Positions 3,092 to 14,612 of a stretch of 23,693 nt of DNA are shown here, in pieces. Position 1 is the first letter of the stretch, and every line of letters starts with the position of its first letter. The position numbers and the translations under genes are program-made. Under the pieces are notes generated by a model. It ran no database searches and had not been told where the DNA came from. It worked only from the letters and a program-made list of their open reading frames with translations. The stretch comes from a virus, in the IMG/VR virus record IMGVR_UViG_3300031857_001409, positions 1 through 23,693 of that record; one strand, written 5' to 3'.

Positions 3092-3099
3092 GATAAATA
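3092..3099 (+). promoter_or_regulatory. late-type promoter of gp13 (GATAAATA)
   Basis: GATAAATA followed by exactly five bases and the gp13 ATG. It matches seven of eight positions of the T4 late consensus TATAAATA. With T4 geometry (-13 to -6) transcription would begin at the A of the ATG. It is arranged back to back with the gp14 promoter within 33 bases. Confidence 0.7.
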
Positions 3100-10184: not shown

Positions 10185-10550
10185 ATGTCAAATTTACCAA
10201 CTTCTCTTCAACAAGATAGTGCCGCTGGCACAAAGTTATTTTTTGATCGTTACGGTGAAAAACCCTTGGAGTTTGGAGCCAATGAAGTCGGAGCTGCCAT
10301 TGCTTTTTTTCAAAGTCGTGGATTTGAAAACGATGCAGCTATCATTACAGCGCAGGTTTTATTGAATCAGGCCAAACTTGACGCCGTGCCAGTGTTCAAG
10401 ATCATTGACACTCTTAAGAATTTTAATGGCGTTCAAATCAGTGCGCTGGTAGCAGAGATATTAAACAACAATAGAAATGCCACAAGTTCGTTGGGTTACC
10501 GCACTGACCTAATAGAAAAACAAAATCAGACTAGAAATATTTTTGCATAA
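10185..10550 (+). CDS. conserved T4-like phage protein of unknown function
   Basis: 121 residues with a helical, soluble profile. It resembles a small protein found near gp4 or baseplate genes in marine T4-like phages; recognisable parts are LFFDRYGEKPLEFGANE, VGAAIAFFQSRGFENDAA near 36-53, LLNQAKLDAVPVFKIIDTL near 59-77, and the C-terminal EILNNNRNATSSLGYRTD. The FFxxRGFxxxAA helix followed by NQAK suggests a helical-bundle assembly factor or baseplate accessory, but no function can be named. It begins one base after the stop of the tube-like gene, and its last base overlaps the start of gp4 (TAATG), pointing to coupled translation within one late operon. Confidence 0.7.
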   Translation: MSNLPTSLQQDSAAGTKLFFDRYGEKPLEFGANEVGAAIAFFQSRGFENDAAIITAQVLLNQAKLDAVPVFKIIDTLKNFNGVQISALVAEILNNNRNATSSLGYRTDLIEKQNQTRNIFA

Positions 10551-10990
10551 TGCCAAAATTTGCTCAAGGTCGTTTTGAAATGAAAAATGTCGACAAGTAT
10601 GTGGGCAAAAAAACACCATTGGCTCGTAGCTCATGGGAATTTATTTTCATGAAGATGTTAGACGAACATCCAGGAGTTGAAAAGTGGGCAAGTGAAAGTA
10701 TACAGATTCCTTATCGAGATCCATTAACTGGCAAATATACAATATATGTTCCTGATTTTTTTATCACCTATGTGGATAAAAATGGAAGGAAACATGCAGA
10801 GGTCGTAGAAGTCAAACCAGCCAGTCAGACTTTTATAGAACAAGTGGGCAAGAGTCAGTATAATCAACAACAGTATGTAAAAAACATGGCCAAGTGGGAA
10901 GCTGCTGCCGCTTGGTGCAAACAACAGGGTATTAAGTTTCGCATAGTCAACGAAAACGATATTTTCCATACTGGCTCAAAACGTAGATAA
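10550..10990 (+). CDS. 4: gp4-like head completion protein (nuclease fold)
   Basis: 146 residues, the normal size of the family (T4 gp4 150). The layout is typical: an N-terminal basic segment, RSSWEFIFMKMLDEHP near 26-41, WASESIQIPYRDP near 46-58, YVPDFFITY near 66-74, and VVEVKPASQ near 85-93. Acidic residue E30, D69 of PDF and the E87-x-K89 motif reproduce the PD-(D/E)xK active site of TnsA-like nucleases. T4 gp4 completes heads after packaging, probably by trimming or protecting DNA ends; loss gives non-infectious particles. The C-terminal part (KWEAAAAWCKQQGIKFRIVNE) is also family-typical. All catalytic residues appear present. It sits in the operon between a conserved small gene and the small terminase. 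Confidence 0.85.
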   Translation: MPKFAQGRFEMKNVDKYVGKKTPLARSSWEFIFMKMLDEHPGVEKWASESIQIPYRDPLTGKYTIYVPDFFITYVDKNGRKHAEVVEVKPASQTFIEQVGKSQYNQQQYVKNMAKWEAAAAWCKQQGIKFRIVNENDIFHTGSKRR

Positions 10991-10997
10991 GTAAAGT

Positions 10998-11480
10998 ATG
11001 ACGAAAAAACTTGAAGAACTGTTTAATCTAGAAGATTCTAAGCCGGTCAAAGAACCAGTGGTGGTTGAAACAAAAATAGATCACACAGAAGTCCGTAGCC
11101 TAGATGACAGCTATAAAGCAGTGGCGGAAATCACTCGCAGTTTACCACAGGTAAAAGAGCTGGACGAACTCAATGATCACGAGTTAGATAACTTAGCATC
11201 AAAGGCTGAACAGGCCTACGATGATCTAATGGATCTAGGCATGAATGTAGAAGTTCGTTATAGCAGTCGTATTTTTGAAGTAGCCAGCTCAATGTTAGGC
11301 CACGCAATTACAGCTAAGTCAAATAAAATTGAGAAAAAACTCAAGGCCATTGACATGCAGATGAAAAAATACAAGATTGACAAAGACAACAATGAAGACC
11401 CAAATGATGTTATCAATGGGCAAGGATATGTAATCACTGACCGCAACGATCTCATTAAAAAATTAAGCGGAAAAGCATAA
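10998..11480 (+). CDS. 16: gp16-like small terminase subunit
   Basis: 160 residues (T4 gp16 is 164). The plan matches T4: an acidic leucine-rich N-terminus (LEELFNLEDSKP), a linker, then DDSYKAVAEITRSLPQ, two long helices around residues 60-125 (AEQAYDDLMDLG..., RIFEVASSMLGHAITAKSNKIEKKLKAIDMQMKKYKI) that fit the central coiled-coil that oligomerises into a ring, and a short C-terminal segment. Small terminase recognises or regulates DNA and stimulates the gp17 motor. It is encoded two genes upstream of gp17 instead of directly adjacent. The stop codon is part of the late promoter box of the next gene. Sequence in this family diverges fast, so the call rests on architecture, size and neighbourhood. 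Confidence 0.7.
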   Translation: MTKKLEELFNLEDSKPVKEPVVVETKIDHTEVRSLDDSYKAVAEITRSLPQVKELDELNDHELDNLASKAEQAYDDLMDLGMNVEVRYSSRIFEVASSMLGHAITAKSNKIEKKLKAIDMQMKKYKIDKDNNEDPNDVINGQGYVITDRNDLIKKLSGKA

Positions 11481-11483
11481 ATA
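11466..11483 (+). promoter_or_regulatory. late-type promoter of the capsid-targeted protein gene (AGCGG-N7-TAAATA)
   Basis: CATAAATA at 11476-11483 matches seven of eight bases of TATAAATA and is followed by exactly five bases and the ATG at 11489. AGCGG (11466-11470) precedes TAAATA by seven bases, as it does before the sheath gene and the gene at 14624. The box includes the stop codon of gp16. Confidence 0.7.
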
Positions 11484-11488
11484 CTACT

Positions 11489-12049
11489 ATGAAAACTTTC
11501 AAAGAATACCTTGCAGAGGGCAAAAAGTCATACAGCTTTAAGATTAAAGTTGCAGGTGAGTTGCCCCAGGATTTCCAGTCAAACTTAAAAACATCACTAG
11601 AAAGATGTAAAGTTATGAAAATGGAAAAAATCAGTACAACACCAATCCAAGCAGTGCCTATGGATTTTCCAACTATGAAAAACTGTGAAGTTCACGTTTT
11701 CGAAGTTGCGTGTGAATACCCAATTACTTCACCTGAAATCAGCAGTGATATCAAGAGCATGGGTCTAGACGAAACTTGTTTTAGAGTAAGGGGCAGCAAC
11801 GAATCTTCTGAAACCGAACAAGGCGAAACAGAAATTTTAAATACTGATGGGCTATTAACAGACAGCCAGTACAAAGAAGGCACCAATGTCAAGCATAAAG
11901 ATTTCTTTGGCGATGACTTTAACAAGAGTTTTTTGAAAGATTTAAGCAAGGTTGCTAAACAACAAAAGAAAGACAACGGTCAGACAGAGTATAAACTGCC
12001 TAAGGCCAAAATTGATAAGACAGGCGTAAAAAGCGCCCTAGGGAGTTAA
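11489..12049 (+). CDS. putative internal head protein with capsid-targeting leader
   Basis: 186 residues. The N-terminus MKTFKEYLAE-GKK closely resembles the capsid-targeting leader of T4 internal proteins (MKTYQEFIAE-A...), which directs proteins into the prohead core and is removed by the gp21 protease after a (L/I)xE site. Here L8-A9-E10 followed by G11 fits that cleavage rule. The rest contains SYSFKIKVAGELPQDF, a conserved-looking alpha/beta region up to ~100 (VHVFEVACEYPITSPE...), and a charged, probably disordered tail with DFFGDDFNKSFLKDLSKVAKQQ. I therefore infer that it is packaged in the head, either as a core/scaffold component or as a protein injected with DNA. No enzymatic motif is visible. 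The neighbouring genes (gp4, gp16, scaffold-like, gp17) all serve head assembly and packaging. Confidence 0.65.
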   Translation: MKTFKEYLAEGKKSYSFKIKVAGELPQDFQSNLKTSLERCKVMKMEKISTTPIQAVPMDFPTMKNCEVHVFEVACEYPITSPEISSDIKSMGLDETCFRVRGSNESSETEQGETEILNTDGLLTDSQYKEGTNVKHKDFFGDDFNKSFLKDLSKVAKQQKKDNGQTEYKLPKAKIDKTGVKSALGS

Positions 12050-12050
12050 T

Positions 12051-12965
12051 ATGAATTTCAATGAATTAATGCAAAGAATGCGTGAGTTAGATGCTCCTGT
12101 CGCTCCATCAGCAGCAGTTGAGGCCTGTGGCGATCCAATGGGAATGCCACCACCAAGTATTCCTAGCAAACCCGATGAACCTCCCCCAAGCATGAGCGTA
12201 AACCTCAATGCACAGGGCATGGACAACATTGCTGAATTAATGAAGTTAATGACTAAAGTTAATCCAGACATGATCAATCAACCAGCTCCTATGAGTATGC
12301 CTCCGATCAGTGCTGAACCAAGTATCATGAGCATTAAACCTCCAATGTCTAGTATCGGCGATCTAGGCAATCTAGATGCAGGCCCATTAAAAATGTTGCC
12401 CGACTTAGACGCAGACAACAATAATATGCCAGGCGGCGAAATGGATAGTGACTACGATGACAGCGGAGATCTAGATGCACATGAAAAAGATCACGCAGAT
12501 GAAAAACCATTGATCAAAACTCTAGACCGTGACGACGACGGTGATCATGACATGGATGATCATGACATGGAAAAAGATGACGACAAAGAAGACAGCAAGA
12601 AAGACAAAGAAGAAGCATTTAGTAATGCTCCTATTGGTGCTTCTGGTCAAGAATATCACGGCATTGACGCTGCTATACCCGATGGTGATGATCTTAATAA
12701 GCCCAAGAAAAGTTTTAGCGGCAAACCATACCGCGGGGATAATCCAATGTCTGCAGGCGCTTACGAAAGCAAAGAAGCACTACGTGCAAGTATCAAAGAA
12801 GAACTACGTGCCCGTTTAGCAGAAGCTAAGTTTGACCCACTAAAGCATGTTAAGAATCCTACCAAAGGTGAAAAAGAAGCTGCTAAAGATGTTAAGCGTG
12901 GCAGCTATGCTGACCGTGCAGCCATGCTAAAGTCAGCAGAAGCAGATGGTCGTTTAAAAAAATAA
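12051..12965 (+). CDS. acidic scaffold/core-like head protein with EF-hand-like loops
   Basis: 304 residues. An N-terminal helix MNFNELMQRMREL leads into a Pro/Met-rich stretch, then a strongly acidic low-complexity region near 115-185, then SFSGKPYRGDNPM near 221-233 and a helical C-terminus with ALRASIKEELRARLAEAK near 253-270. Similar proteins lie beside gp17 in marine T4-like phages and are usually unannotated. L266-A267-E268 followed by A269 fits the gp21 prohead-protease rule. Two segments fit the 12-residue EF-hand calcium loop: residues 134-145 (D,D,S,G,D,D,E at positions 1,3,5,6,7,9,12) and 159-170. I infer a prohead core or packaging role. The start is one base after the previous stop, with GGGAG upstream. 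A terminator follows at once. Confidence 0.7.
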   Translation: MNFNELMQRMRELDAPVAPSAAVEACGDPMGMPPPSIPSKPDEPPPSMSVNLNAQGMDNIAELMKLMTKVNPDMINQPAPMSMPPISAEPSIMSIKPPMSSIGDLGNLDAGPLKMLPDLDADNNNMPGGEMDSDYDDSGDLDAHEKDHADEKPLIKTLDRDDDGDHDMDDHDMEKDDDKEDSKKDKEEAFSNAPIGASGQEYHGIDAAIPDGDDLNKPKKSFSGKPYRGDNPMSAGAYESKEALRASIKEELRARLAEAKFDPLKHVKNPTKGEKEAAKDVKRGSYADRAAMLKSAEADGRLKK

Positions 12966-13025: not shown

Positions 13026-14612
13026 ATGGCAAAATCACTAGACGGCGTATTAATTAAGAAAGCTCATGCCCCTCAACGCTACACACTTGAGGAAGTTCAG
13101 CATCTTGAAGCCTGTATGGATCCTATAACAGGTCCTCTGTATTTTTGCAAAAATTTCCTTAAGATACAACATCCGGTTAGAGGATCAATTCCGTTTGTGC
13201 CTTATGACTATCAAGAAAGACTGATAGATGCCTATCACAATAACAAACAGTGCATTGCCATGCTGCCAAGACAGATGGGCAAGACCACCTGTGCCACAGG
13301 ATACCTTCTGTGGTTTACTATGTTTGTTCCTGAAGCACAGGTATTGATTGCTGCGCACAAATACGAAGGCGCACAGGATATCATGAATCGTTATCGATTT
13401 GGCTATGAAAACTTGCCAGACTTTATTCGTGCTGGAGTGTACAGCTATAACAGAAACACCATCGAATACGATAACGGTGCTCGTATACAGGCAGTAACAA
13501 CTACAGAAAATACAGGACGCGGTAAATCTCTTTCATTGATCTATTGCGATGAGTTCGCATTCGTGCAACCTCCAGAGAAAGCCAAGGAGTTTTGGACCGC
13601 ACTAAGCCCCACACTATCAACTGGTGGTAAGTGTATCATCACATCAACACCTAACTCAGACGAAGATCAGTTTGCCTTGATCTGGACAGAAGCCAACAAG
13701 AAGTTTGACGAACACGGAAATGAACAAGCACTAGGCATGAATGGATTTCATAGTTTCTTTGCACACTGGGCAGAACATCCGGATCGTGATGAAAAATGGG
13801 CGCAAACAGAACGTGCTAAAATTGGTGAGGAAAGATTCCGTCGTGAATTTGATTGCGAATTCTTGATCTTTGATGAAACACTAATCAACGCAGTACGTCT
13901 GGCAGAAATGAAAGGCATTGACCCTATTATGACCATGGGACAAACACGGTTCTATAAAGATATTGATCCAAGATCCACCTATCTAGTTTCTCTAGATCCT
14001 TCACTAGGCACAGGCGGTGACTATGGTGCTATCCAAGTTTTTGAAATGCCCAGTATGGAACAGGTGGCAGAGTGGCGACACAATCTAACCCCCATTCAAG
14101 CGCAAGTTAAACATCTAAGAGAAATATGTAAGTATATTCAAGACCGTGGCATGGAAAAAGGCAGTGCTCCTCAACTATACTATTCAGTGGAGAATAACAC
14201 TCTAGGTGAAGCTGCCCTTATTGTGATCAATAACATAGGTGAAGAGAATTTTCCAGGTTTATTCCTTTCTGAGCCAATTCGCAAGGGGCATGTACGTAAA
14301 TTCAGAAAAGGATTTAATACCACACATAAGTCAAAAATCACTGCTTGCAGCCAGGTTAAACACATGTTAGAAACACAGAAAATGAAGATTTATTCAAAAC
14401 CTCTAATATCTGAACTTAAAACGTTTGTGGCACACGGAGTGGGATTTGGCGCTAAAACAGGCGAACATGATGACCTAGTAAGTGCCATGCTGTTGGTAAT
14501 ACGCATGGCGGGCATATTGTCAGACTGGGATCCTAAGATCTACGAAAAGATGACGGAAAAATTAAGCGAAGATCAAATGCCCATGCCGATATTTGTCTCT
14601 AGCGGTTTTTGA
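13026..14612 (+). CDS. 17: gp17-like large terminase subunit (packaging motor ATPase/nuclease)
   Basis: 528 residues, slightly shorter than T4 gp17 (610). ATPase domain: Walker A LPRQMGKTT (80-88), Walker B LIYCDE (171-176) and the coupling motif ITSTPN (205-210). Nuclease domain (RNase H fold): SLDPSLGTGGDYG with D324, YSVENN with E389, and GEHDDLVSAM with D482, which together form the metal-binding triad. All key residues are present. The protein translocates DNA into the prohead at the portal and cuts concatemers. It has a terminator directly upstream and a late promoter of its own, so it is expressed independently of gp16. No intein or intron is visible, unlike some T4-like relatives. Translation probably starts without a Shine-Dalgarno sequence. 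Confidence 0.95.
   Translation: MAKSLDGVLIKKAHAPQRYTLEEVQHLEACMDPITGPLYFCKNFLKIQHPVRGSIPFVPYDYQERLIDAYHNNKQCIAMLPRQMGKTTCATGYLLWFTMFVPEAQVLIAAHKYEGAQDIMNRYRFGYENLPDFIRAGVYSYNRNTIEYDNGARIQAVTTTENTGRGKSLSLIYCDEFAFVQPPEKAKEFWTALSPTLSTGGKCIITSTPNSDEDQFALIWTEANKKFDEHGNEQALGMNGFHSFFAHWAEHPDRDEKWAQTERAKIGEERFRREFDCEFLIFDETLINAVRLAEMKGIDPIMTMGQTRFYKDIDPRSTYLVSLDPSLGTGGDYGAIQVFEMPSMEQVAEWRHNLTPIQAQVKHLREICKYIQDRGMEKGSAPQLYYSVENNTLGEAALIVINNIGEENFPGLFLSEPIRKGHVRKFRKGFNTTHKSKITACSQVKHMLETQKMKIYSKPLISELKTFVAHGVGFGAKTGEHDDLVSAMLLVIRMAGILSDWDPKIYEKMTEKLSEDQMPMPIFVSSGF

Follow-up and report, generated by a model that had tools for sequence, protein, structure and literature searches.

The protein encoded at positions 11489-12049 of the window, i.e., the whole stretch of viral DNA of 23,693 nucleotides that was analysed, is probably a late head protein which is tagged with a capsid-targeting sequence (CTS), would have this leader cut off and most likely serves as a constitutive inner-head or core component. 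The modularity of the leader is a more interesting result than the protein itself.

Positions 11489-11521 (plus strand) translate as MKTFKEYLAEG, the N-terminus of an open reading frame of 186 amino acids closing at 12049 (Table 1). In the T4 record, ipII and ipIII feature the leader MKTYQEFIAE-A and ipI features MKTFKEF, with MKTFKE being identical between IPI and the protein studied here. According to residue composition, a leader of the class M-K-[TS]-[FY]-x-[ED]-[FYL]-[LIV]-x-E has a probability of 1.7e-7 per start, which corresponds post hoc to about 6e-6 over approximately 33 genes. Additionally, residues 1-39 weakly match PHROG 2667, an internal head protein (E = 0.0036). Residues K2, F4, K5, E6, Y7, L8 and E10 are fixed in all 47 distinct homologs from IMG/VR, which were partly retrieved with the seed MKTFKEYL and may thus be biased towards intact leaders, although other seeds were also used. 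Variation of the leader in this group is limited to position 9 and one exchange of T3 to P, despite synonymous codon changes at positions 2, 4, 7, 8 and 10. With a mean column conservation of 0.95 for residues 1-10 compared to 0.67-0.83 elsewhere, the leader is the most conserved part of the protein. The T4 record and this conservation confirm the likeness to the leader of T4 internal proteins which the first-pass annotation had pointed out, and MKTFKEYLAE is, judged by its sequence, a T4-type CTS. Homology of the cargo to the T4 internal proteins outside the leader was rejected, with only noise-level alignments being left after omission of the first 12 residues; homology of the cargo to gp2 or gp4 was likewise compared and rejected.

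Table 1. Features of the window around the leader-tagged open reading frame.
Feature	Position	Strand	Basis
gp4-type head completion protein	10550..10990	+	PHROG 218 head closure (E=7.5e-38); TnsA-like Pfam
CATAAATA, T4-late-promoter-like motif	11476..11483	+	just 5' of ATG; TAAATA in 47/47 homologs
Leader plus ferredoxin-like virion protein, 186 aa	11489..12049	+	PHROG 14802 match; virion homologs CBB_210 and PA5oct gp282
Capsid-targeting leader MKTFKEYLAE	11489..11518	+	match to T4 internal-protein leader; conservation in 47 homologs; AlphaFold2 helix
Predicted prohead-protease cleavage site Glu10/Gly11	11516..11521	+	YLAE/S type like capsid protein site of complete relatives
Predicted ferredoxin-like beta-alpha-beta-beta-alpha-beta domain, residues 15-103	11531..11797	+	AlphaFold2 pLDDT about 79-90; Foldseek to ribosomal protein S6-like folds
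Predicted C-terminal helix 142-161 and basic disordered tail (residues 141-186, pI 9.7)	11912..12046	+	AlphaFold2; composition
Fast-evolving neighbour with second leader-like N-terminus MNFNELMQRMRELDAP	12051..12965	+	37% identity to G2
Terminase large subunit	13026..14612	+	PHROG 36964 (E=2.5e-114)

Mutagenesis of the T4 IPIII leader assigned targeting mainly to residues 4 and 7 and processing to residues 8 and 10, and an Asp at position 10 blocked processing while targeting was unaffected (PMC9026906). In the group of the window, F4 and Y7 occur in 47 of 47 homologs, and both positions are hydrophobic in all isolate homologs read. The processing site (L/I)xE is represented by L8-A9-E10/Gly11, with E10 being likewise invariant in the group. 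Positions 4, 7 and 8 are hydrophobic or aromatic in every relative of the wider family that was read. Position 10 is Glu in the window group, Atu_ph07, CBB, GAP32-type phages and Vibrio 2.275.O, Asp in RaK2, Hallingskeid and several CBB-type contigs at least 87% identical to CBB, Ser in Munch and Phosso, and Ala in PA5oct and XaC1; the capsid proteins of the same phages retain the Glu ahead of a SATAGATSAGN-type stretch. As positions 4, 7 and 8 are kept while Glu10 toggles, targeting appears to be conserved and cleavage to be optional across the family. Since many relatives have Asp, Ser or Ala in place of Glu10, cleavage is not required family-wide, which counts against the proposed role in the inner head. 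Cleavage is plausible in the lineage of the present protein, yet no constant feature of the family; the earlier statement that the (L/I)xE site is kept holds within the group of the window and not throughout its wider relatives. The natural variants with targeting residues but without the cleavage Glu represent a mutational series which separates targeting from processing.

A gp21-type protease and T4-type head genes are absent from the 23.7-kb fragment itself, but the near-complete relatives (G001-G003) feature the protease together with a gp22-type scaffold (MLDFVKQLFE/N...) and gp23. Their capsid protein precursor contains ENTRKYLAE/SATAGATSAGN with the putative processing site YLAE/S, and in many relatives the leader ends in the same way (MKTFKEYLAE/S). 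Besides, an 86-aa protein (L097, G002:26087-26347) starts with MKIRDILE/SATAGATSAGN, its 11 residues after the Glu being identical to those with which the major capsid protein (G002:111057-112226) continues past its putative cleavage site. A similar stretch, VEE/TASAGASSAGG, occurs in PA5oct gp281.

The cargo matches PHROG 14802, annotated as virion structural protein, over residues 1-168 (E=4.4e-7), and tblastn revealed homologs in PA5oct-type phages, Sinorhizobium phage Phosso and Agrobacterium Atu_ph07. Via the Phosso query, homologs were found in 56 records of the RaK2/CBB/121Q/PA5oct lineage. Judged from organism tallies, they match near one-to-one a set of 58 records in which the identity of the capsid protein to that of the group reaches at least 57%; Salicola phage SCTP-2 and a partial Escherichia record seem to deviate. 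Virion data come from two homologs: CBB_210 was detected in CBB virions with 13 unique peptides and 60.5% coverage (PMC5259590), and the record of PA5oct gp282 carries the note ESI-MS/MS. Thus, the protein cannot be called unstudied, as had been done at first, and it most likely belongs, as a late-type virion protein, to a known family from the RaK2/CBB/PA5oct jumbo lineage. With the PHROG 14802 members CBB_210, PA5oct gp282 and RaK2 gp488 it shares homology over most of the length and the same neighbourhood, and the homologs of CBB and PA5oct occur in virions. Identity between the groups is about 20-26%, the C-terminal regions diverge, and the canonical T4-like leader with Glu10 belongs to the group of the window. 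Compared to the near-complete relative G2, the protein shows 66% identity, while tail tubes show 57-64% and the sheath 62%; the next gene is far less similar (Table 1). Queries of the PA5oct and Vibrio types yielded no further relatives in IMG/VR, and a family-wide alignment was dropped as seed for the collection search due to its divergence. In Atu_ph07, the annotated start of FDI40_gp113 omits 29 codons (L084:8001-8088) encoding the leader MKTLQDYLTE/S, whereas RaK2 gp488 is annotated with the extended start.

The AlphaFold2 model of the protein (46 sequences) is of moderate quality, with an overall pLDDT of 69 and a pTM of 0.47, which weighs against the core reading. It places a short helix of low confidence at residues 4-10, separated by a linker from the ferredoxin-like domain, which would stay intact after loss of residues 1-10. 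A disordered acidic stretch lies between this core and the helix 142-161, and the mature protein has a pI of about 6.9, unlike the basic T4 internal proteins, which was counted against the core reading. Sequence searches with the cargo gave no match in PDB, Pfam, NCBIfam or PADLOC. The Foldseek matches were generic for ferredoxin-like folds, and a fold match to the T-even protein Ip7 was discounted as weak (E=1.6e-3, TM 0.25-0.40).

The gene order tail tube, tail tube, gp4, small protein, homolog of the present gene, ..., terminase is shared by PA5oct, CBB, RaK2 and Vibrio 2.275.O. Because the gene lies beside gp4 and tail genes, a location in the neck is possible. Such a neck or portal-vertex protein would join with gp4 and the neck proteins after packaging, its N-terminal helix acting as a docking helix instead of a prohead-core signal, which would fit the conserved order, the variable Glu10 in the family and the good detection of CBB_210 in virions without localisation. 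However, the leader of the window group equals the T4 CTS wherever targeting or processing depends on the residue, ends in the same type of site as the capsid protein and occurs identically on unrelated cargos of phages encoding gp21 and gp23, so that a place in the neck is considered unlikely. Otherwise differing proteins, namely that of the following gene in the window and those at G001:62087-63073, G002:26377-27366 and G002:151471-152031, share another leader-like N-terminus of roughly the form M(D/N)F..L(L/I/M)..(L/M/I)..(L/M)(D/E).

T4 late promoters feature TATAAATA. Late expression of the present gene is suggested by the resemblance of CATAAATA and its TAAATA to this element. TAAATA is enriched upstream of open reading frames in the near-complete relatives, where it precedes 48 genes in G1 (5.4 expected) and 41 in G2 (7.4 expected), including terminase, tail tube and head genes. 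Within the window, NATAAATA motifs occur right before structural genes at 3092, 4851, 11476 and 14611, often about 9-13 bases ahead of the ATG. Given this close spacing, use of the motifs as promoters would leave transcripts with a 5' untranslated leader that is very short or missing. Since the TAAATA motif falls between TTG 14609 and ATG 14624, translation of the 659-aa virion protein probably begins at the latter (MDATNN...).

For the protein as inner-head component, the following course may be proposed. In the assembling prohead, the amphipathic helix at the N-terminus, with its hydrophobic positions 4, 7 and 8, would dock the protein on a gp22-type scaffold core, and a gp21-type protease would subsequently cut after Glu10 and leave the mature chain of residues Gly11-186 inside the head. 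There, helix and basic tail could contact the packaged DNA, and the protein would act as a constitutive part of the inner head or core with a structural rather than an effector role. In the capsid of the RaK2-like phage phAPEC6, a rod-shaped inner body is present (PMC7247149), and by analogy a body of this type might accommodate such proteins.

The gene is universal and single-copy, keeps its synteny, is of late type and evolves slowly, and a structural or assembly role is therefore favoured over that of an arms-race effector. As an ejected effector, the mature protein would be packaged and injected and, in the manner of T4 IPI or Alt, would counteract a host defence or reprogramme the cell. 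The T-even internal proteins with CTS leader are indeed diverse defence-blocking proteins in which only the CTS is conserved (PMC3012670), and a cyanophage S-AdoMet lyase family with the same leader suggests that this leader class can deliver effectors. The present gene, however, occurs near one-to-one with the capsid protein, evolves at a rate like that of tube and sheath, and encodes a cargo without matches in the databases PADLOC, Pfam and PDB, which makes the effector quite improbable. From the alternatives initially offered, i.e., an ejected anti-defence or takeover protein or a core component, the former is therefore not favoured and the core component is the better half.

With T4 IPI, IPII and IPIII, the protein has in common the 10-residue leader with matching or similar residues 2-4, 6-8 and 10, a gp21-type protease in its complete relatives and the virion association of its homologs. 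It differs by an unrelated cargo sequence of near-neutral pI and by the missing cleavage Glu in some relatives; moreover, T4 internal proteins are variable and dispensable, whereas the present gene is a conserved and syntenic core gene. The inner-body and ejection proteins of phiKZ and SPN3US are likewise head proteins of large phages; their propeptides feature a short motif which ends in Glu and is cut by a homolog of T4 gp21. This likeness concerns the motif, with no sequence relation being claimed, and the motif of phiKZ is S/A-X-E instead of (L/I)xE. Discussion of the T4 leader has mostly centred on T-even phages; here, jumbo-type phages have it conserved on one of their core virion proteins.

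A DNA pattern for MKTFKE(Y/F)(L/F)xE gave at least 120 matches in IMG/VR, compared to none for a permuted pattern of the same composition. Among the matches listed, 77 classifiable open reading frames with the exact leader beyond the group of the window fell into at least 19 cargo clusters by BLAST of the cargo alone, a level of separation at which remote homology between clusters is possible. It is very improbable that the N-terminal helix simply belongs to the fold and owes its T4 likeness to chance: the motif is short and the helix is retained even without Glu10, but matches of this number and the leader common to so many unrelated cargos speak against a coincidence, as does the linker which sets the predicted helix apart from the domain. 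Of 13 leader-bearing records tested, 10 encode an S77 prohead protease and Gp23, including all records above 70 kb; the other 3 are fragments below 65 kb. At least four consecutive open reading frames with MKTFKEY(L/I)xE leaders form a tandem array (L128:1041-5000), which is preceded by a GTG-start frame with MKTFKQYLEE and followed by KKFKEYL starts. In two further records (L157, L126), a MKTFKEFLEE gene is paired with a MKTYQEFISE gene, the latter being nearly T4's own leader.

Many other cargos in IMG/VR thus carry this leader, but in near-complete relatives the exact leader occurs once. These feature shorter (L/I)xE-like leaders, i.e., MKLLELFE/Q and MLLKQLFE/S on cytidylyltransferase-like proteins, and further MRAKEFIIE/N, MKLYEILTE/G, MKISELLVE/S and MKIRDILE/SATAGATSAGN. 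As a genome-wide criterion, (L/I/V)xE near the N-terminus was too loose with an only about 2.5-fold enrichment. The strings MKTFKEF, MKTFKEY and MKTYQEF did not occur in the literature searched, which is only part of all literature, and within the same partial coverage no paper linked CTS leaders to metagenomic T4-like phages. Given that unrelated proteins in large number carry MKTFKE(Y/F)L-type leaders, there is about an even chance that uncultured T4-type phages generally use the T4 capsid-targeting leader as a modular system of loading, by which tagged enzymes, ready-made and in part anti-restriction, would be delivered together with the DNA. Its high recognisability makes the leader usable as a key for finding packaged and possibly injected phage proteins in metagenomes.

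The first leader-keyed search already yielded an S-AdoMet lyase family, the enzyme type of T3 anti-restriction. This second largest cargo cluster comprises 12 members from relatives of cyanophages (L131, L141, L144, L161, L162, L170, L174, L180, L188, L193, L196 and the truncated L143), carries the leader MKTFKEFL(D/E)E/SS, matches Pfam S-AdoMet_lyase PF23780 (E=6.6e-18) and is related to cyanophage proteins such as P-TIM68 gp123; a sequence match in PDB was not found for this cargo. In comparison with the Svi3-3 residues Gly56, Tyr58, Glu69, Ser71 and Gln104 (PMC7877911), the motif G-x-Y...E-x-S is present in 6 of the 12 members and GQD(S/A) in 11. Where read, five members without G-x-Y appear to have Trp for Tyr (e.g., GRW in L161), and one member is truncated. 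Since phage T3 uses an S-AdoMet lyase-type enzyme against restriction (PMC7877911), a packaged anti-restriction enzyme is an attractive idea, and by this analogy the leader-tagged family is a possible example. In S-WAM1 (L254:589-2007) and P-RSM6 (L255:406-2022), the lyase domain is located C-terminally in a longer open reading frame and is preceded by an internal leader-like segment, KSFKEFLEE/GN or KTWQEFLDE/GN, as if tagged proteins had been fused.
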